From: Spirulina sp. SIO3F2
GTDB taxonomy: Bacteria; Cyanobacteriota; Cyanobacteriia; Cyanobacteriales; Spirulinaceae
NCBI GenBank assembly: GCA_010672165.1
Contig: JAAHHN010000004.1
Span: 1-64,000 of the forward strand
Length of the DNA stretch: 64,000 nucleotides
Reading direction: 5' to 3'
The translations under genes were made by a program, and so were the position numbers. A model generated the notes under the pieces. That model saw nothing but the letters and a program-made list of their open reading frames with translations. It ran no database searches and was not told the origin of the DNA. This document shows, in pieces, positions 6,968 to 20,432 of this stretch; positions within the stretch are counted from its first letter, which is position 1; every line of letters starts with the position of its first letter.

Positions 6968-9022
6968 TCAAGAGTCCTCATCGCTACCATTGATGGCATC
7001 GATTTGAGCAGGAATAATGATCTCAAATGTTGTTCCTGTGCCGATCTCCGAAGTACAGTTGATTTGTCCGCAGTGGGTTTCAGTAATGATTTTATAGCTG
7101 ATTGATAGCCCTAAACCCGTGCCTTTGCCAATGGGCTTTGTTGTAAAAAAGGGATCAAAGATTCGAGTCTTGACATCATCGGGAATCCCGCCTGCATTAT
7201 CTGTAATCCGAATTCTAACTTGAGGCGGGTTGACTTCATCTTGATAACCTGTAGTGATTTTGATTTCAGGACTGTAGCTTGTGTCTATTTTTCGTTTGTC
7301 CTCCAGTGCATCAATTGCATTCACAATTAGATTCAGGAAAACTTGGTTGAGTTGGGCTGGATAACAGTTAATAGAAGGTAACTCCCCATAATTCTTGCTA
7401 ATCTTAATTCCTGGATGTGTGGGCTTGGATTTGAATTTACTCTGGAGGATAACTAGCGTGTTTTCAAGCCCTTCATGGAGATCAACCGATTTATGCTGGG
7501 CTTCATCAAGTCGAGAGAAGTTGCGTAATGACAAAACAATATCCTTAACTCTTTGCGATCCCATATGGATGGAAGCCAATAACCTCGGAAAATCTTCTTT
7601 AATAAAGTCGATATCAATATTATCAAGCTCATCTTGAATGGCATGATCGGGCTCAGGATAATAGGTTTGGTAAAGAGAGACTAAATTGAGCAAATCCTGA
7701 GCATAACTATTGGCATGGGTGAGATTGCCATAGATAAAACCAATGGGATTGTTGATTTCATGGGCGATGCCTGCAACAAGCTGACCGATGCTGGACATCT
7801 TCTCATTTTGAACAAGCTGAAGCTGGGTGGATTTTAACTCGTCTAAGGTGTCCGTGAGTTGCTCATTCTTGCTCTCAATCGCTTGAAAAGATTCATGAAT
7901 GCGGTGTGTCATATAATTGAAGGCATTGGCTAAGACCTGCCATTCATTAAAGCTTTGAATACTCAAATCACTCGAAAACTGACCTTGGCTGATTTGATTG
8001 GCCGCATGGGTTAATTTCTCAAGGGGGGAAACTAAAAGTCGTGCCACTTGGACACTCAAGATAATGGTTGCTAAAATAGATACAGTTAATATTGTAAAAA
8101 TTGCAGCCATTAATCGACGGATAGGGGCATAGACTTCTTGGAGAGGCAGCTCAACAACCACTTGCCAATTCACACCATAGATTAAAGAGCGTGTCCCCAA
8201 CACGTCAAGACCACGTAAGCCTTGATAAATATGAGTTGAATCCGTTAAATTGTCTTGAAAAACGGCAGAAGCAATACGCGTATCTAACACTTCAAGAATC
8301 GCGTCTTGATCAGTCTCAACATCTGTTCGTTTTCTGGCAATAATTTGATTATGCTGATCGAGTATATAGACATATCCTGTTTCACTAATTTGAGAGCGGG
8401 CAACAACAGAGTTCAAAAAATCTAGGTTGATCGTTGCAACCAGGACACCATCAGGGCGACCATCTGGGTCTTGAATTGGCAAAACCAAGGTGGTGATTGG
8501 CATCTTCAACGACGGTTCAATTTCGATCGCATCAATATATCGGATTTGTTGCTTGATCGCCTTGAACAATTCGGGATCGCGAATTCGCTTGGATGCAAAG
8601 TACTCAATATCTGTATTGATATAAGGGGCGATCGCGGCGAGGAGTTGTCCTTCTGGAGTCACGATCGCCACCATCTCATAGGCATTATTTTCGCGGGTCA
8701 GACTCTCAAGCAGGGTTCGCTGGGTTTCGCTGGGTAATTGTGCTAATCCCCGCACTTTCTGCAAATAGCTCAACTGTTGTTTGAGATCATCCAAACGAGT
8801 TCGTACTTCCATTGCCAAGGCGAGAGCACGTTCTTCCTGGAGTTCTTGGGTTCTGTGCCATTGTGCATGACGACTGAGGACGATGGTAATAATGCCGACA
8901 ATGATTAGGTTGCTCGTAACCAAGCCAATAAAAATAACTCTTAACCCCTGCTCAAGGGATAGTGAACGCAATCTGCTCAACATCTTGTTGAGCATTGTTG
9001 TACATAGACTATTCCCAATCAT
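6968..9022 (-). CDS. Sensor histidine kinase with extracytoplasmic dCache-like domain
   Basis: A 684-residue membrane kinase. Transmembrane helices lie at about 28-50 and 304-326, enclosing a periplasmic domain of about 250 residues that resembles a double Cache sensor ([29 protein letters not shown]). HAMP follows (327-380), then a coiled linker, the H-box [15 protein letters not shown] with phospho-acceptor H421, and a HATPase domain with N box ([10 protein letters not shown]), [28 protein letters not shown]. The transmitter half closely resembles that of the kinase at 18696-20432. It lies 98 nt downstream of a NrtA-like binding protein on the same strand, suggesting that the binding protein presents a ligand to it. 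No response regulator is adjacent. Confidence 0.93.
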
Positions 9023-9120
9023 TAGACTATTACTTATATAAAAAAAAACTTCTCTTCTTAATGAATCTTCACTCTCTTTAAGCTTCGGCGATTGAGCAAA
9101 ACTATGAGTTGCACGTTTCT

Positions 9121-10317
9121 CTAAGTCTCCAGTACCTCATGGCGAGATAACTCAATCGGTAAACCAAAGGATTGGCCGCCTCCTAATTTCCGCATAGCTA
9201 GTCGCACAAATGAATCATCAACGAGATCTGAGACAACCTGATCAGGAGAAAGTTTATCTAAAAATTGGATCTCATCTTGGATAAAGGTCTGCTTCAGTTC
9301 TTGAGCGAGTGCATGAGTATAGGAAGGGAAGGGATAGGGTTGAAAATCAATCCGTTGCGATCGCCATTGGGGATGTAGAATCGCTTTCTGGCGGGTGTAA
9401 TAGTCCTGATCATAGGAATTGAGCACCCGATCCAAAATTGAAACTGGATAGGGAATGTATTTTCCACCATCTAACGAGAGGATATGAGCTAGCTCTGGAC
9501 GATTAGCCCGTGCCCAGAGCTGAGACTTCACAATGGCATTAACAACTTTTTGTGTCCATTGGGGTCGGTGTTGTAGATCGGCTTCATGCATAAACACCAC
9601 ACAACAGGCATGATCTTTCCAGACATCCCCAGTCAGACGCAAAATTTTGCCTAAACCTTGGGTTTCAGCCGCAGAATTATAGGGTTCTGCAACCATGTAG
9701 CCAGCAATATCTTGTTGGATTAAGGCTTTGAGCATATCCGAAGGCGGTAGGACAACCAGCCGAACTTCATTCGTCTCCAAAGCAGTATGGGAGGGCTTGC
9801 TGGTGGGTTTTAAGCCCTGGGCGCGTAGCAAAATTTGCAGCACAACGTTGTGGATTGAATACCACGAGGGAATCGCCAGGGTTGTGCCTGCGAGATGGGC
9901 AGGCTGCTCAAGATCCGGGCGAACCGTCAGCGCGGAACCATTCGTATGATTCCAGGCCACCACCTTACCGGGAAAATTAAAGCCGTAGCGCACGAGCATG
10001 GTGGTGGGCATCAAGAGATGAATGACATTGACCTCTCTACTTATAAAAGCGTCAATAATGGCATCCCACGATCGGTATTGTTGCGGAGGCTCTGGGGTCA
10101 ATCCCTCCGCACGATAAAAGCCTTTGTCGTAGGCGGCCAGCAATGGCGCTGCATCTGTGATCGGCAGATAGCCGATTTTCAGTGGTTGGGCGGATGGTGC
10201 TGCACCCGACCACCATGCAGGGCGATCGCACCCGGACATTATGGCTGAAAGGCCAACCGCAGAAGAAAATAGACGAGTGAGTTTCAGAAATTGGCGACGG
10301 TTGTAGCGCATGATCAT
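9121..10317 (-). CDS. NrtA/SsuA-like ABC substrate-binding lipoprotein
   Basis: A 398-residue periplasmic binding protein of the nitrate/sulfonate/taurine type. The N-terminus reads NRRQFLKLTRLFSSAVGLS followed by a lipobox ending at Cys (SGCD), so it is a membrane-anchored lipoprotein, possibly exported by Tat although only RR, not a full motif, is seen. The mature part starts LKIGYLPITDAAPLLAAYD, typical of NrtA/CmpA relatives, and continues with FPGKVVAWNHTNGSALTV and VVLPPSDMLKALI. No permease or ATPase gene lies nearby; instead a sensor kinase follows on the same strand. Ligand unknown. It may serve sensing instead of transport. Confidence 0.88.
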   Translation of the reverse strand: MIMRYNRRQFLKLTRLFSSAVGLSAIMSGCDRPAWWSGAAPSAQPLKIGYLPITDAAPLLAAYDKGFYRAEGLTPEPPQQYRSWDAIIDAFISREVNVIHLLMPTTMLVRYGFNFPGKVVAWNHTNGSALTVRPDLEQPAHLAGTTLAIPSWYSIHNVVLQILLRAQGLKPTSKPSHTALETNEVRLVVLPPSDMLKALIQQDIAGYMVAEPYNSAAETQGLGKILRLTGDVWKDHACCVVFMHEADLQHRPQWTQKVVNAIVKSQLWARANRPELAHILSLDGGKYIPYPVSILDRVLNSYDQDYYTRQKAILHPQWRSQRIDFQPYPFPSYTHALAQELKQTFIQDEIQFLDKLSPDQVVSDLVDDSFVRLAMRKLGGGQSFGLPIELSRHEVLET

Positions 10318-13874: not shown

Positions 13875-14672
13875 TTAATCCACAAAACATTGGGGATCGT
13901 TATCGAGCGTATAAGTTGCGTTTAGATCATCCGCAAAGGGTACGTCTTCAAAACATTTCAGACCTTGAGACTCAAGTAACTCATGCCATGTGTCTGGATT
14001 AGCTTTGCGATCTTGGGCAGTCGTCCGAATTTCTTCGTTCCAGAACAATACGTCAGGGTCAGGATTGCCAATTGAAGCAGTGCAACCGTTCTCACAAGTA
14101 ATGAGTCCTTCTACGGTGCCATTCTCCGGGGTTGAACCGTTACATAACACTGAGAATTGCCAATGATACACCTTGCCCGGCTCTAGCCTAACTTCTTCAA
14201 TTTGATAGCGAGCGATGCGAGGGCCAGTTGCTGCTGTTGCTGGCACCGGTAAATTGTCCTGAAATAAAATTTCGTGATAAGAATAGCGCTGATCTGGATC
14301 ATTGCGGGGAATTAATTCATCAATAACCAGTTCCGCTGTATCAGCTGCAGTTTGGGGTAAGTAAATGAAGAGTGTCGGGTGCGGATCTAAGGTTGTCGTT
14401 GTGTTGTCTTGGGGGGCTAGAACAGTCATCGGCGTGAGGGCATCTAATTTACCATCACCATTGCGATCAAAGCGACTGATCACACAAGCGCCAGCACTTC
14501 GCTTGGGTGCACCACTGGCAGTACGGGAGGGCGCTCCGTCGGAAGGAGAAGAATCAGGAGTATCCACTGCACCAACAGGGGGAAGTATGACTAGGCTAAA
14601 TCCCAACGCACTCGCTACCAAAAGACCAGTTCGTAATTTTTTGTGAAAACCCATATTTTTGTAGAAACCCAT
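13875..14672 (-). CDS. DUF928 protein, paralogue 3 of 3
   Basis: A 265-residue exported protein: signal peptide KLRTGLLVASALGFSLVIL to about residue 36, then the motif GAPSRTASGAPKRS and a DUF928-type core with LTPMTVLAPQDNTTTTLDPHPTLFIYLPQ and GPRIARYQIEEVRLEPGKVYHW. The C-terminus ends NDPQCFVD, nearly identical to its two neighbours. Four to six cysteines suggest disulfides in the periplasm. Function is unknown; DUF928 is largely cyanobacterial. Third in a same-strand tandem set and the one nearest the CHASE2 cyclase. Confidence 0.82.
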   Translation of the reverse strand: MGFYKNMGFHKKLRTGLLVASALGFSLVILPPVGAVDTPDSSPSDGAPSRTASGAPKRSAGACVISRFDRNGDGKLDALTPMTVLAPQDNTTTTLDPHPTLFIYLPQTAADTAELVIDELIPRNDPDQRYSYHEILFQDNLPVPATAATGPRIARYQIEEVRLEPGKVYHWQFSVLCNGSTPENGTVEGLITCENGCTASIGNPDPDVLFWNEEIRTTAQDRKANPDTWHELLESQGLKCFEDVPFADDLNATYTLDNDPQCFVD

Positions 14673-14811
14673 AGCTGCCCTGCCAAGCTTAACGATGAAC
14701 GAAACCTTAAAAAATAGCTACTTCTAGCATACCTGTTTTAAAGAAAGAATGCGAGTCTGTATCAGTAATTGATACGTCTAGATAACCAAGTCTTAAGCCT
14801 TAGAAGCAAGC

Positions 14812-15645
14812 TTAATCTACAAAACATTGTGGATCATCTTCAATGGTGAAATCTACATCAGATTCATCTGAAAAAGGAACTTCTGCAAAACAGGCTAATC
14901 CTTGACTGTCTAAAAGCTCAAGCCATTGTTCTGGATTAGATTGACGCAACTGTGCTGTGAGGGAAACAGTCTCATCCCAAAATCCCTGTTTGGCATAACT
15001 AAGAGCAGTTTGCATAACTTCTTCATCGGTCAATTGGTTTAAATCAGGAACTTTAGACTCAATGGAGCAACCATTTTGGCAGCTTATAATTCCCTCAACG
15101 TGACCAATAGTTGCGATTTGCAAGAGACCATGCTCTTCATTTTCACAGGAGAGACTGAATGACCATTTATAGGTTCTGCCTGGCTTGAGAGCAAAGTCAC
15201 TTAGCGTGTAAGCTGCAATACGTGGACCATTTTCTATACTACGAGGAACAGTTAAAGTATCGTTAAAGTAAACTTCTTTCTCTGGACTCCCATCCAGTTT
15301 TTCATAAACGCTGATTACAGCAGTATTAGCTGGGGATTCAGGTAAGTAAATAAAGAAAGTTGGGTTCTTATCAAAACTGCTAATCGTGTTATTCGTGGGT
15401 GTAATTGCTGTCATTGGGGTCAATTTATCAATAACACCATCACCATTCAGATCTCTGGGTTGAGGAGGTTCACAATAACCACTACGTCGAGGTGCGCCAC
15501 TCGCCGTACGTGGCGGCGCCCCACTAGAAGGGGTTGAACTGGGAAAGCTGATAGCATCTGAGGGCAGTGGCACGATCGCTCCCATGCCAAAGCCTAAAGC
15601 ACTGAGCAGTAGTAAGTTGGTCTTGAAAGATTTGGAGAAGAGCAT
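14812..15645 (-). CDS. DUF928 protein, paralogue 2 of 3
   Basis: A 277-residue exported protein. ATG at 15643-15645 puts a clean signal peptide (SFKTNLLLLSALGFGMGAIV) at the N-terminus; the frame is open further upstream but would overlap the preceding gene's 3' end with unlike sequence. It carries GAPPRTASGAPRRS, LTPMTAITPTNNTISSF, FFIYLPES and GPRIAAYTLSDFALKPGRTY, and ends DDPQCFVD. Compared with paralogue 3 it has an extra segment near residues 200-235 (LTDEEVMQTALSYAKQGFWD) shared with paralogue 1. Role unknown. Confidence 0.82.
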   Translation of the reverse strand: MLFSKSFKTNLLLLSALGFGMGAIVPLPSDAISFPSSTPSSGAPPRTASGAPRRSGYCEPPQPRDLNGDGVIDKLTPMTAITPTNNTISSFDKNPTFFIYLPESPANTAVISVYEKLDGSPEKEVYFNDTLTVPRSIENGPRIAAYTLSDFALKPGRTYKWSFSLSCENEEHGLLQIATIGHVEGIISCQNGCSIESKVPDLNQLTDEEVMQTALSYAKQGFWDETVSLTAQLRQSNPEQWLELLDSQGLACFAEVPFSDESDVDFTIEDDPQCFVD

Positions 15646-15694
15646 AACTATTTTGGAGAATCTCAGATCAGAATTAGAACAGGAAGGCAACATT

Positions 15695-16624
15695 TTAGAA
15701 TTGTGGTGAGTTACCATCCACAAAGCATTTGGGATCGTTTTGAACTGTGAACTCAGCACCACTATCATCTGCGAAAGGTGTATTTGCTAAACAACCTAAG
15801 CCCTGACTTTCGAGTAGCTCTGACCATTGTTTTTGATCGAAGTTGCGTAATTGAGCAGTTAGACTTAACGTCTCAATCCATAACTCTTGCTCTGCATAAT
15901 CTTGCGCTGCTTGAGTTAGTTCAGATTTATTTAAATCTTGTACTCTAGAAATATTTGTATCTGTACTACAGCTCTGGACACAGGTAATCTCACCCCACAA
16001 TGAGTCAGTGAATGGTTCTGGATTACCACAAAGAAGGGCAAAGCTCCATTCATAAGTGCGACCAGGCTCAAGATCTAAATCATTCAATTCATAGGCAACA
16101 ATCCGTGGCCCATCATCCGTGACACTGCTAGGAATAGACAATGTGTTGTTGACATAAACTTCCTTGCGCTCGTAACGAATATTAGGGTTTCCATTCTCAT
16201 CAAGGATAGGTTTATCATCCGCATCTAAAGCAACCACACCGACCTTTTCTTCTACAACAATTTGTGCAGAAGTTGCAGTGTTTTGTGGCATGTAGATAAA
16301 GAAGACAGGATGAGTATGAGCGGTTTGGACAGTATCAGTAACTGGCACAATTGCAGTCATCGGGGTCAGCCATGTTTCGGCATCACCATCATTATTTAAA
16401 TCCGCTTTCTCGACAACTTTACATTCACTCCGACGGGGTGCGCCACTCGCGGTGCGGGGGGGAGCCCCTCCTGATGGCGTGGAACCGGGAAAACTGACAG
16501 CTTGACTGGGTAGGGGGGCGATCGCACCTATCCCCATACCCAAAATGCTGATCAGCAATGGAATCGTGCGTAAGGATTGCTTAAAGCTCAATTTGCTAAG
16601 ACCCCACTTGTTGTGAAAACCCAT
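15695..16624 (-). CDS. DUF928 protein, paralogue 1 of 3
   Basis: A 309-residue exported protein, first of the tandem set in transcription order. ATG at 16622-16624 is preferred over a TTG four codons upstream. Signal peptide SLRTIPLLISILGMGIGAIA, then GAPPRTASGAPRRSE, LTPMTAIVPVTDTVQTAHTH, FFIYMPQN and GPRIVAYELNDLDLEPGRTYEW. An insertion (about residues 135-160, EKVGVVALDADDKPILDENG) is absent from the other two. The C-terminus has the shared NDPKCFVD but runs six residues further. The 835-nt or longer upstream spacer probably holds the promoter of the set. Confidence 0.82.
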   Translation of the reverse strand: MGFHNKWGLSKLSFKQSLRTIPLLISILGMGIGAIAPLPSQAVSFPGSTPSGGAPPRTASGAPRRSECKVVEKADLNNDGDAETWLTPMTAIVPVTDTVQTAHTHPVFFIYMPQNTATSAQIVVEEKVGVVALDADDKPILDENGNPNIRYERKEVYVNNTLSIPSSVTDDGPRIVAYELNDLDLEPGRTYEWSFALLCGNPEPFTDSLWGEITCVQSCSTDTNISRVQDLNKSELTQAAQDYAEQELWIETLSLTAQLRNFDQKQWSELLESQGLGCLANTPFADDSGAEFTVQNDPKCFVDGNSPQF

Positions 16625-17600
16625 AACTATGCTCAAATGCTCAATGATTCAAAATGAAGGGAGATGCTAATTCCAAGATAGCGGTTTCGTTTCGGTGGTG
16701 GCTGGATCAACTGTGCAGATTCACAAGCTGGCCAAGCTGTCTGTTGTGCCTACTGCCGATTCGCTAATGCTCTGATGTGGGCCAAAATTAAAGTCTGTTA
16801 GTGAGATTTTATTGGTCAAAATGCAAAACCTAAGTCGATATAAAATTCAGCGTCACACATATTTTGACCACAATTGCACCTAGAGAAGTTCCGGACATGA
16901 ACAGAAAGACGGCCAGAACCAGGCAAAGGTTGCTTAGAGTCTGAATTATTGTTCATGTCTCTTGTTTGTGCTGCTCATAACCCTTACGTGTGTGGTAAAA
17001 CTTTAGGGCGATTGCTCCTGACGATGGCGGCTATATCCACCATCACTAGTACTCGACGGCGGAAGTAAGCCACCTATTCAAAATCCACCCGATATCTGTC
17101 ATACAGACACTTTGAACTTTGAACTCTGCACTTTGAACTTCCGCCCTGCGGTACTAGGCTATTGGCTCTTAGCAGTCTTTCCCTTGTGGGGGGTTTGTGT
17201 TGAAGCCTCATAACCGCTGAGTAGAATAGTCTATTTGATCTAGTTAAGCCGTTACGCAGCTAATGTTCTTCATTTAGCCCTGAGTGCTAATTTGCCCAGT
17301 TAGATACAAAACTTCACTAGCAAATCTGCGAGTAACCCTTTATCACTAAGGGTAAGCCCTCAGTGAAAATACTAGCCTTAGGTAAACAGACTGACGTAAC
17401 CCAGAGGCTGTCATCAACGAAATATCAAGCAACGCATTGCGATAGAGACTATTCACTCGCTATCGCAACGGTTGGGTTCGGCGTTGTATCGCTTGTCCCA
17501 TAAGAATGTCAGAAGAATTGATGGTGACATGTTCTGCACTCTGCTCTGCCTTGTTTTGTTGGGCTATCTGCCCCAATTCACCCAAACTGCTAACTGTGAC
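16625..17600. other. Long non-coding region with inverted-repeat element
   Basis: About 976 nt without a convincing gene between the divergent DUF928 set and the PhnD-like gene. It holds the 112-bp inverted-repeat element at 17046-17157 and a hairpin at 17343-17366 (TCACT, one mismatch, AGGG, loop TAAG, then the complement). The hairpin has no T-run on either strand. An open frame runs into the PhnD gene from 17472, but the lipoprotein signal starts at 17601. The rest shows nothing recognised. Confidence 0.5.
17046..17157. repeat. 112-bp inverted-repeat (MITE-like) element
   Basis: The ends CTAGTACTCGACGGCGGAAGT (17046-17066) and the complement of 17137-17157 match at 17 of 21 positions. The inside includes a heptamer array of CTTTGAA units (17110-17137). 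No open frame lies within. Size, terminal inverted repeats and lack of coding potential fit a miniature inverted-repeat element or a dispersed cyanobacterial repeat. Confidence 0.65.
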
Positions 17601-18560
17601 ATGAAAACGATCTCTCGACATACATTTAATCCCTTTTCCTTCTGTTTGATTCTGTTAGCGTTGGCGCTATTGGCACCCGCCTGTCGCCCCTCTGCTGATT
17701 TCAACTCCACTCAGGAGACCCAAGCAACTCAAACACCCGCATCCAGCGACGCTGAACTGGAGATTACAGAACTGGCGATCGCTATTCTCCCAGCCCAAAC
17801 AGGAGAGGATGCCAAGGCGAGTTTTAGTAGCCTTGAGGCCTATTTGACGGAACAACTTGGAATTCCCGTCACCCTCACCCTTGCCGAGAGTTACGATGCC
17901 ACGATTGAGATGATGGCTGACGAAAGGGTTTACGTCGCTCATTTGGGGCCGTTTTCTTACATCAAAGCCAAAACACAAAATGATGCCCTTGAATCCATTG
18001 TGACAAGTATTCAAGCGGATACGGGTCGCCCATGGTACACCAGCGTTATCATTGCTAGCAATGCCAGTGGCATTCAAGAGCTGGCTGATATCAAGGGCAA
18101 ACGCTTTAGCTTTGTGAGTGAATCTTCAACCTCTGGTTTTCTCGTCCCTACAGGTGCGTTTAAAGATCTTGAAATTGATCCAGATGTTGATTTTGCCACG
18201 ATCGGTTTTGCAGGCAGCCATGATCAAAATGCTGCTGCTCTAGCCCAAGGACAAACTGATGCGGCTGCGATGACAGCTCAAACCTACCAAGAAGCTAAAC
18301 AGTCGGGTCAACTTCCAGAGGATACATTCACGCTGATTTGGGAATCTGATCCTATTCCTGGTGGTCCCATCGTCATTAATACCAAGCTATCTGAAGATCT
18401 GCAAAGTAAGCTTAAAGAAGCCCTGGTTAATGCGCCGCCTGAAGTGGTTAATGTCATAGAACGCAGTAATGATGAAGGTGCAGGTTATACATTAGTTACA
18501 GATGAAGACTATGACCTGATTCGCCGTTTACATGACTCACTGGGAATTGAAGGGTATTAA
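17601..18560 (+). CDS. PhnD-like phosphate/phosphonate-type substrate-binding lipoprotein
   Basis: A 319-residue periplasmic binding protein of the PhnD family. ATG at 17601 gives a lipoprotein signal (FCLILLALALLAPACRPS) with lipobox Cys. The core has the family features AILPAQTGEDAKASFSSLEAYLTEQLGIPV, YVAHLGPFSYIKA, KGKRFSFVSESSTSGFLVPTGAF, AGSHDQNAAALAQGQTDAAA and PGGPIVIN. PhnD proteins bind phosphonate, phosphite or related oxyanions. No phnC or phnE lies nearby; a histidine kinase follows 135 nt downstream on the same strand. A sensing role is therefore as likely as transport. Confidence 0.9.
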   Translation: MKTISRHTFNPFSFCLILLALALLAPACRPSADFNSTQETQATQTPASSDAELEITELAIAILPAQTGEDAKASFSSLEAYLTEQLGIPVTLTLAESYDATIEMMADERVYVAHLGPFSYIKAKTQNDALESIVTSIQADTGRPWYTSVIIASNASGIQELADIKGKRFSFVSESSTSGFLVPTGAFKDLEIDPDVDFATIGFAGSHDQNAAALAQGQTDAAAMTAQTYQEAKQSGQLPEDTFTLIWESDPIPGGPIVINTKLSEDLQSKLKEALVNAPPEVVNVIERSNDEGAGYTLVTDEDYDLIRRLHDSLGIEGY

Positions 18561-18695
18561 AAGACTTTGCCTAAATATGTTGGCTTGGACGAGAGGATTG
18601 TTGCTTATTCCCTCAGGATTCCAGGCAAATATGGTGATATGCACTAATGTTGAGATTAAAATCCTGTCTCAGTCTACTTTGAAAATCAGACTGCT

Positions 18696-20432
18696 ATGAG
18701 AATTGCAACTAAGCTACTTACATCTTCTGGACTCATTATTGCAGTGATTATTACCTTCTTTGGAGGTGGTACATTGCTATCCCAAAGAATTGGCAGAAAA
18801 GCTGAAATTCAGCATAAAAAGACCCTGTTGATAGTTAATCGTGTCCTAGGTCTTAAGATTTCCCTGCAAAATGAAATTTCTTATCTCAAAGACTATCTTT
18901 TTTTGGATGAGAGTTCAACTCAGATGGCGAAGTTTCAAAAAGAAAAGTCTAATCTTGTCCTGGCCTTAGAACAGCTTCAAAAGCAGTTGCCTGATTCTCT
19001 TACTGTAAAATCAATCCAGGCACGGCATAAGACACTGATTCAACTATCAGATATGCTTAGGGATGGGGGAGATTCCTTAGCTGAAATCAAACAAGATATT
19101 AGTACGATCGATGCTTATGGTCGAGATATTAATTATTTGATTGATAACTTAATTGAGGATGCGATCGCCCAAGAGGAATTTGCCTATCAACGGGTCAAAC
19201 GTCTAGAGTCTTGGCTGTTTATTGCTCAATATACCAGTATTTTAGTTATCTTAGTGCTGCTTGCCTGGCAATTCAAGCAAATTTTTTTACCATTGATTCA
19301 ATCTATTCGAGATTTAAAACTTGGGGTTACGGAAATTGGTACAGGACAATTTCAGAAACGGGTAACCATCGAGACAGGAGATGAAATTGAAGAACTCGCC
19401 TATGATTTCAATTTGATGGCACAGCAGCTTGAGGAATCTTATCACTCTCTAGAAGCTAAAGTTGACGAGCGCACAGCTCAATTCAAAAAAGCTAATCAAG
19501 CCTTAACACAGACTTTACAAGAATTAAGGCAAACCCAAGGGCAGCTCATTCAGAATGAAAAAATGTCGAGCTTAGGTCAGCTTGTTGCAGGAGTTGCCCA
19601 TGAAATCAATAACCCAGTTGGTTTTATTTATGGTAATTCAACCCATATAGCTGGCTATGTTGCAGATCTGTTCGAGATTATCAATTGTTATGAGCAACAG
19701 TATCCCAATCCCCACCCAGTAGTGCTGAGTTTGTATGAAGAACTAGAAATTGACTATCTTAAAACTGATTTACCTGAGGCTGTAAAATCCATGAAGTTGG
19801 GGGCCGATCGCATCCGTGAAATTGTTCTTTCACTCCGTAATTTCTCTCGCCTCGATGAAGCAGAAACTAAGGAAGCAGATATTCATGAAGGCTTGGATAA
19901 TACCCTGATGATTTTGCAAAATCGTACTAAGTTTCAAGCGAAGCGCCCTGCAATCAAAATCAGAAAAGACTATGGTGAGATTCCTCTTTTCTATTGTTAT
20001 CCAGGTCAGCTCAATCAAGTTTTTATGAATATTCTGAGTAATTCGATTGATGCTTTGGAAGAATATCATCGCAACCGAGTTGAAACAAATCAGATATCAG
20101 AAGCTCCTCTGGAAATTCAGATTAAAACACAACAAGTATCAACACCTGTTGCTCATTCTATGTTAGAGGTAGAGAACTGGATTCAAATTACTATTGCAGA
20201 TAATGGCCCAGGGATTAGTGAGTCTGTGCTAAATAAATTATTTGATCCGTTTTTCACAACCAAAAAAGTGGGTAAAGGCACAGGTTTAGGACTTTCGATT
20301 AGTTATCAGATTATTGTAGAAAAGCATGGGGGAGATTTGCGTTGTGAATCAATCCTTGGGCAAGGGGCTAAATTTTTCATCACGTTGCCGATGTTGAAAG
20401 CGGGCCAAATCCTAGAACCTGCGATCGCCTAG
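18696..20432 (+). CDS. Sensor histidine kinase with HAMP domain
   Basis: A 578-residue membrane kinase with helices at about 7-29 and 173-193 enclosing a mostly helical periplasmic region of about 140 residues (four-helix-bundle-like, no Cache motif). HAMP spans 194-250; a coiled coil follows; the H-box LGQLVAGVAHEINNP has phospho-acceptor H302. The HATPase part shows NILSNSIDAL, DNGPGISES and [19 protein letters not shown]. The transmitter shares long stretches with the kinase at 6968-9022 ([22 protein letters not shown]), so the two are paralogues with different sensor halves. Its partner is probably the PhnD-like protein just upstream. No response regulator is adjacent on this strand. Confidence 0.93.
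   Translation: MRIATKLLTSSGLIIAVIITFFGGGTLLSQRIGRKAEIQHKKTLLIVNRVLGLKISLQNEISYLKDYLFLDESSTQMAKFQKEKSNLVLALEQLQKQLPDSLTVKSIQARHKTLIQLSDMLRDGGDSLAEIKQDISTIDAYGRDINYLIDNLIEDAIAQEEFAYQRVKRLESWLFIAQYTSILVILVLLAWQFKQIFLPLIQSIRDLKLGVTEIGTGQFQKRVTIETGDEIEELAYDFNLMAQQLEESYHSLEAKVDERTAQFKKANQALTQTLQELRQTQGQLIQNEKMSSLGQLVAGVAHEINNPVGFIYGNSTHIAGYVADLFEIINCYEQQYPNPHPVVLSLYEELEIDYLKTDLPEAVKSMKLGADRIREIVLSLRNFSRLDEAETKEADIHEGLDNTLMILQNRTKFQAKRPAIKIRKDYGEIPLFYCYPGQLNQVFMNILSNSIDALEEYHRNRVETNQISEAPLEIQIKTQQVSTPVAHSMLEVENWIQITIADNGPGISESVLNKLFDPFFTTKKVGKGTGLGLSISYQIIVEKHGGDLRCESILGQGAKFFITLPMLKAGQILEPAIA

Follow-up and report, generated by a model that had tools for sequence, protein, structure and literature searches.

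A lipoprotein gene of the PhnD family and the histidine kinase gene that follows it, found in the 64,000-nucleotide stretch of Spirulina sp. SIO3F2 analysed here (the window), form a pair that has been passed on as one unit in many other cyanobacteria. The pairing is well supported as lying well beyond chance, since the next gene on the same strand is a kinase at 29 of the 31 cyanobacterial loci with an orthologue of the binding protein, and the two genes very probably encode a two-part extracytoplasmic receptor in which binding protein and kinase are partners. The conserved unit is the binding protein together with the sensor domain of the kinase; the transmitter has been swapped several times, being that of a direct kinase at some loci and that of a hybrid-kinase relay at others.

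The position and identity of both genes bear out the sequence-only reading, which had seen here a PhnD-like lipoprotein upstream of a histidine kinase (Table 1). With its start taken as the ATG at 17601 (the mechanical open reading frame begins with a TTG at 17472), the lipoprotein matches PF12974 (E 4e-59; 200.3 bits, cut-off 27) and TIGR01098 (203.1 bits, cut-off 112 bits) and, on these two scores, is assigned to the PF12974 phosphonate/phosphite/phosphate binding superfamily; against TIGR03431, the PhnD equivalog, it reaches 214.6 bits, under the cut-off of 261.1 bits. The Cys behind its signal peptide shows no variation across 20 aligned orthologues. The kinase matches HAMP, HisKA (weakly) and HATPase domains and possesses H- (His302), N-, G- and F-boxes, features by which it is classed as a HisKA-type histidine kinase. 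Its AF2 model (mean pLDDT 77, pTM 0.39) is entirely helical from one hydrophobic segment to the other. Most matches of a fold search with the model of the entire kinase were DHp/CA domains, so that this search was uninformative on the fold of the sensor region. No terminator-like site was found on the + strand of the gap between the genes, a Pho box sought upstream of the window gene did no better than in shuffles, and neither a phosphorus-metabolism gene nor a response regulator is adjacent to the pair. Elsewhere in the window, three DUF928 genes stand in tandem (13875-16636).

Table 1. Features of the binding-protein/kinase pair, in positions of the window.
Feature	Position	Strand	Basis
PhnD-family (PF12974) periplasmic binding lipoprotein, 319 aa	17601..18560	+	
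Signal peptide and lipidation-type Cys28 (LLAPAC)	17601..17684	+	sequence
Pocket Tyr98 (Te_PtxB Tyr55, Ec PhnD Tyr47)	17892..17894	+	alignment; PMC5700983
Pocket Tyr146 (Te_PtxB Tyr100, Ec PhnD Tyr93)	18036..18038	+	
Oxyanion-binding motif Ser176-Thr177-Ser178	18126..18134	+	
Pocket His207 (Te_PtxB His160, Ec PhnD His157)	18219..18221	+	
Gln227, at the position of Ec PhnD Glu177 (amine-binding)	18279..18281	+	PMC5908839
Gly255, at the position of the Te_PtxB Tyr208 cap and Ec PhnD Asp205	18363..18365	+	
Intergenic gap, 135 bp	18561..18695	+	
Sensor histidine kinase, 578 aa	18696..20432	+	
Predicted periplasmic helical sensor region, residues 31-172, flanked by two hydrophobic segments	18786..19211	+	AF2 model, hydropathy
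HAMP domain, residues 200-247	19293..19436	+	
Phospho-acceptor His302 within HEINNP	19599..19601	+	
HATPase_c catalytic domain, residues 438-566	20007..20393	+	

The survey of cyanobacterial genomes for binding-protein genes adjoining this kinase type, proposed along with that reading, was carried out on 59 relatives and on 388 genomes of the class, in which orthologues of the binding protein were collected, and it established the recurrence of the window pairing at 29 of the 31 loci with a neighbourhood examined. At 19 of the 29 kinase-linked loci the genes share 4 bp, from which the window differs by its 135-bp spacing, and the sensor region of the window kinase was found in all 29 partner kinases, in 27 through blastp and in two (L113/G359 and L117/G419) through the sensor matches of the genome search. 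The two exceptions are an orphan binding protein in a genome where the sensor kinase sits on a different contig (G001) and a binding protein with a decayed C-terminus and an absent kinase (G188); farther matches of the orthologue search (L123-L128) are phnCDE operons. Conserved flanking genes at the orthologous loci were limited to kinases, some close relatives excepted, and the attempt to derive a function from conserved neighbours was rejected on this ground. The convergent hybrid kinase, named earlier as a place to look for a shared response regulator, did not appear as a conserved neighbour in those orthologous loci that were inspected. A contig scan with a single protein gave no match, whereas an alignment-based scan did, with Chlorogloeopsis fritschii PCC 6912, whose orthologue lies on contig NZ_AJLN01000104.1, and Nostoc parmelioides, both with an adjoining kinase, among the matches listed; the literature searched held no description of the cyanobacterial pair. 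Outside cyanobacteria, among the matches listed, relatives of the binding protein are mostly found in phnCDE. PhnD-like proteins also occur there beside GGDEF proteins or histidine kinases (L202 3986 onward; L222 3866-4849; L205, L236, L237 and L238), so that such pairs have a wider distribution.

A transmitter of the same type in this kinase and in that of a first pair of the window had been taken as the mark of a repeated design. The match itself holds (45% over residues 129-566), but it was rejected as a sign of special design because this transmitter occurs in about 90 kinases of the genome; indeed, some 90 places score above 200 bits against the window kinase, and the first-pair kinase is approximately the 7th best match. 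Within the clade of the window, 18 kinases have a HEINNP transmitter fused to the sensor and 12 are hybrids that combine a receiver with a HELRTP transmitter. At 10 of the 12 hybrid loci, a receiver-kinase from the HEINNP family comes next (at one of them, L119, the transmitter was matched and the motif was not), the other two being L100, where none was seen, and L116, which ends at a contig edge; the last kinase is thus of the HEINNP type at most loci, in either layout. Furthermore, the layout changes at least five times on the binding-protein tree while the distances of binding proteins and sensors stay correlated (Mantel r 0.89, a value that shared descent alone could give), a pattern suggesting that the receptor has the sensor domain as its partner and that a transmitter held in common is not the defining trait of the design.

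The pocket was compared over 32 clade members, with the roles of its residues taken from PMC5700983 and PMC5908839. The head-group set Y-Y-STS-H is complete in the window protein and in 23 of the 32 members, each column being kept in at least 26; one or more pocket residues are changed or absent in nine. The model of the binding protein (pLDDT 87) has PtxB (Z 31.2, 258 aa, 2.4-2.6 A) and ArrX (Z 30.0, 248 aa, 1.9 A) as its closest folds, rows of the fold search within 1 Z counting as near ties. PtxB, PhnD, PhnD1 and GpxB share with it the fold (Z 27-31) and the residues for a PO3 head; these proteins are components of ABC transporters. The phosphite cap Tyr208 of Te_PtxB and its partner Asp22 are replaced by Gly255 and Ala65, with the capping Tyr occurring in no clade member, and the amine-binding acids Glu177 and Asp205 of E. 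coli PhnD by Gln227 and Gly255, two positions held by Arg223 and Thr247 in GpxB (PMC12718374). Hence, of the earlier proposal of phosphate, phosphite or phosphonate, a PO3-type head group is supported by the pocket residues, whereas phosphite is disfavoured by the loss of the capping Tyr and its Asp, and 2-aminoethylphosphonate by Gln and Gly at the positions of the two acids. A role in phosphonate catabolism, or as a C-P lyase regulator, was ruled against, since PhnJ, present in this genome, does not track the binding-protein clade over 388 genomes (2 of 27 genomes with the binding protein against 36 of 361 others; no association). GpxB, which binds glycerol phosphates, is likewise devoid of the cap (PMC12718374), so that by analogy a larger phospho-ester is a possible ligand. 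As a reasoned prediction, the ligand is probably a phosphorus-type compound.

It is conceivable, at appreciably lower likelihood, that what the binding protein detects on behalf of the kinase is an anion without phosphorus, such as arsenate, sulfate, thiosulfate or another small anion held by the Ser/Thr/His/Tyr cluster. ArrX, one of the closest folds, binds arsenate, the binding residues alone do not set specificity according to the AioX study (PMC5908839), and TtrS senses tetrathionate through a PhnD-like domain (PMC5408782); on the other hand, the full Y-Y-STS-H set is closer to the phosphorus-binding PtxB and PhnD than to the ArrX fragment, which has MSFSG at the STSG stretch, and no arsenic or sulfur genes recur beside the pair. 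With regard to architecture, AioX/AioS, ArrX/ArrS and ArxX/ArxS consist, as in the window, of a PF12974-type periplasmic protein adjoining a membrane histidine kinase; AioX as well as ArrX is among the folds closest to the window protein, and the pocket Tyr, Tyr, Ser, Ser and His of AioX (PMC5908839) are common to both. In contrast to AioX and ArrX, the window protein has no Cys106 (Gly116 occupies this column, and the protein is without Cys after residue 30) and belongs to a cyanobacterial clade, and neither a regulator nor an arsenic oxidoreductase gene adjoins the pair. Our best reading is that the pair would work like AioX/AioS and ArrX/ArrS, from which it departs in Cys106 and in the arsenic genes.

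LuxP/LuxQ and TorT/TorS follow the same logic of a binding protein combined with a kinase. Their binding proteins are structurally and phylogenetically distinct (PMC5908839). In TtrS-type kinases, the PhnD-like fold steers a histidine kinase from within the kinase itself, whereas the window protein is a separate lipoprotein. According to a title cited in PMC10380989, XAC2383-XAC2382 of Xanthomonas citri associates a PhnD-like receptor with a diguanylate cyclase; as far as this title tells, a PhnD-like periplasmic receptor is joined there to a membrane signalling enzyme as in the window, the output being a diguanylate cyclase.

By genome, 26 have both the binding protein and the sensor, one the binding protein only, four the sensor only and 357 neither (Fisher p 3e-35, kinship not corrected for). 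Sensor kinases of this type exist with no binding protein adjacent to them (G156, G203, G217 and contig C447 of this genome, L035 7266-9068, the last a full-length paralogue of the window kinase at 51%), as would suit a kinase that senses alone through its helical domain, the lipoprotein merely modulating or buffering the ligand. Such a division of roles is improbable given that the binding protein is present in 26 of the 30 sensor genomes and the sensor in 26 of the 27 binding-protein genomes, and that the sensor region matched no ligand-binding domain of Pfam. At a further locus (L138 5564-10827), a same-type sensor kinase without an adjacent PhnD-like protein precedes receiver-kinase, ArsR-like and PstS-like genes, the last two named from sequence only.

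Phylogenetic analysis of 95 PF12974 proteins, in which ArrX was represented by a fragment and AioX was left out, assigns the window protein to a clade (support 100/99) whose 31 rows are kinase-linked except for two. Kinase linkage also prevails in a second clade of 24 rows (support 100/100), that of the type on contig C16, and the PtxB-, PhnD- and HtxB-type clades and another transporter-type clade adjoin phnC/phnE; over the whole tree, kinase linkage requires 8 changes against 30.7 in shuffles. The binding proteins of the window type form one clade, strongly supported by the tree, apart from the PhnD/PtxB transporter proteins. The ArrX fragment falls outside the window clade, their joint grouping being compatible with the data (p-AU 0.235), and XAC2383 groups with a protein on contig C168 of this genome, away from the window clade. 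That the window protein is an orphan transport component feeding phnC/phnE elsewhere, with the kinase an unrelated neighbour, is very unlikely, for while its PF12974 fold and name and the presence of phnC/phnE in the genome would allow it, these genes (contig C429) follow their own phnD, the clade is separate from the transporter clades, the score stays below the PhnD equivalog cut-off and a kinase adjoins nearly all orthologues.

Searches of the genome gave eight PF12974 matches, six of which, the window's included, precede a kinase gene. The other two are PhnD-like, one being that of contig C429, with its own phnC and phnE, and the other lying on C218 behind a gene named GntR-like from its sequence; no phnC/phnE was found near the window pair. 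The binding protein of contig C422 fits NMT1 better than PF12974. The first pair of the window (6968-10317), 7.3 kb from the second, consists of an NMT1_2 binding protein and a dCache kinase, and it has a counterpart in a further genus of this family (L287 3188-6681; 57% identity, 77 bp spacing, 33% in the dCache region). The idea of a repeated sensing design is therefore upheld, as both pairs recur and five further binding-protein/kinase pairs exist in this genome. On contig C16 of this genome (L033 8535-14460), two binding proteins of a second PF12974 type, each followed by a kinase, form a tandem array; this type is kinase-linked in most surveyed relatives. Up to four tandem binding proteins lie near kinases at two other loci (L159 4284-8546 and L173 4650-13063). 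On contig C168 (L031 7725-10871), the binding protein closest to XAC2383 precedes a histidine kinase, not a diguanylate cyclase.

We propose a scheme that extends to the physical contact, the ligand, the activating state and the cognate regulator with its output. The lipoprotein, probably tethered in the periplasm through Cys28, would close on a tetrahedral oxyanion head, most likely phosphate or a PO3/PO4-headed compound, and one of its states would dock onto the kinase at its helical periplasmic sensor domain. The resulting change would travel via TM2, HAMP and the signalling helix to His302, altering autophosphorylation or phosphatase activity, and the phosphoryl group would pass to a regulator encoded elsewhere. 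More tentatively, the clade may serve cyanobacteria specifically, and apart from SphS/SphR, to sense phosphate or phosphate esters outside the cell, with one receptor-sensor module plugged either directly into a kinase of the HEINNP type or into a hybrid kinase relaying to a REC-HEINNP kinase.

The pair points to a little-studied way of sensing an external nutrient or toxic ion, and the survey brings out a cyanobacterial kinase-linked clade that keeps a phosphorus-binding pocket, and at least one other large clade linked to kinases. It thereby becomes directly testable whether binding proteins, and not transport, let cyanobacteria perceive a phosphorus compound outside the cell. Furthermore, the swap between direct kinase and relay around the same receptor constitutes a natural case of modular rewiring.
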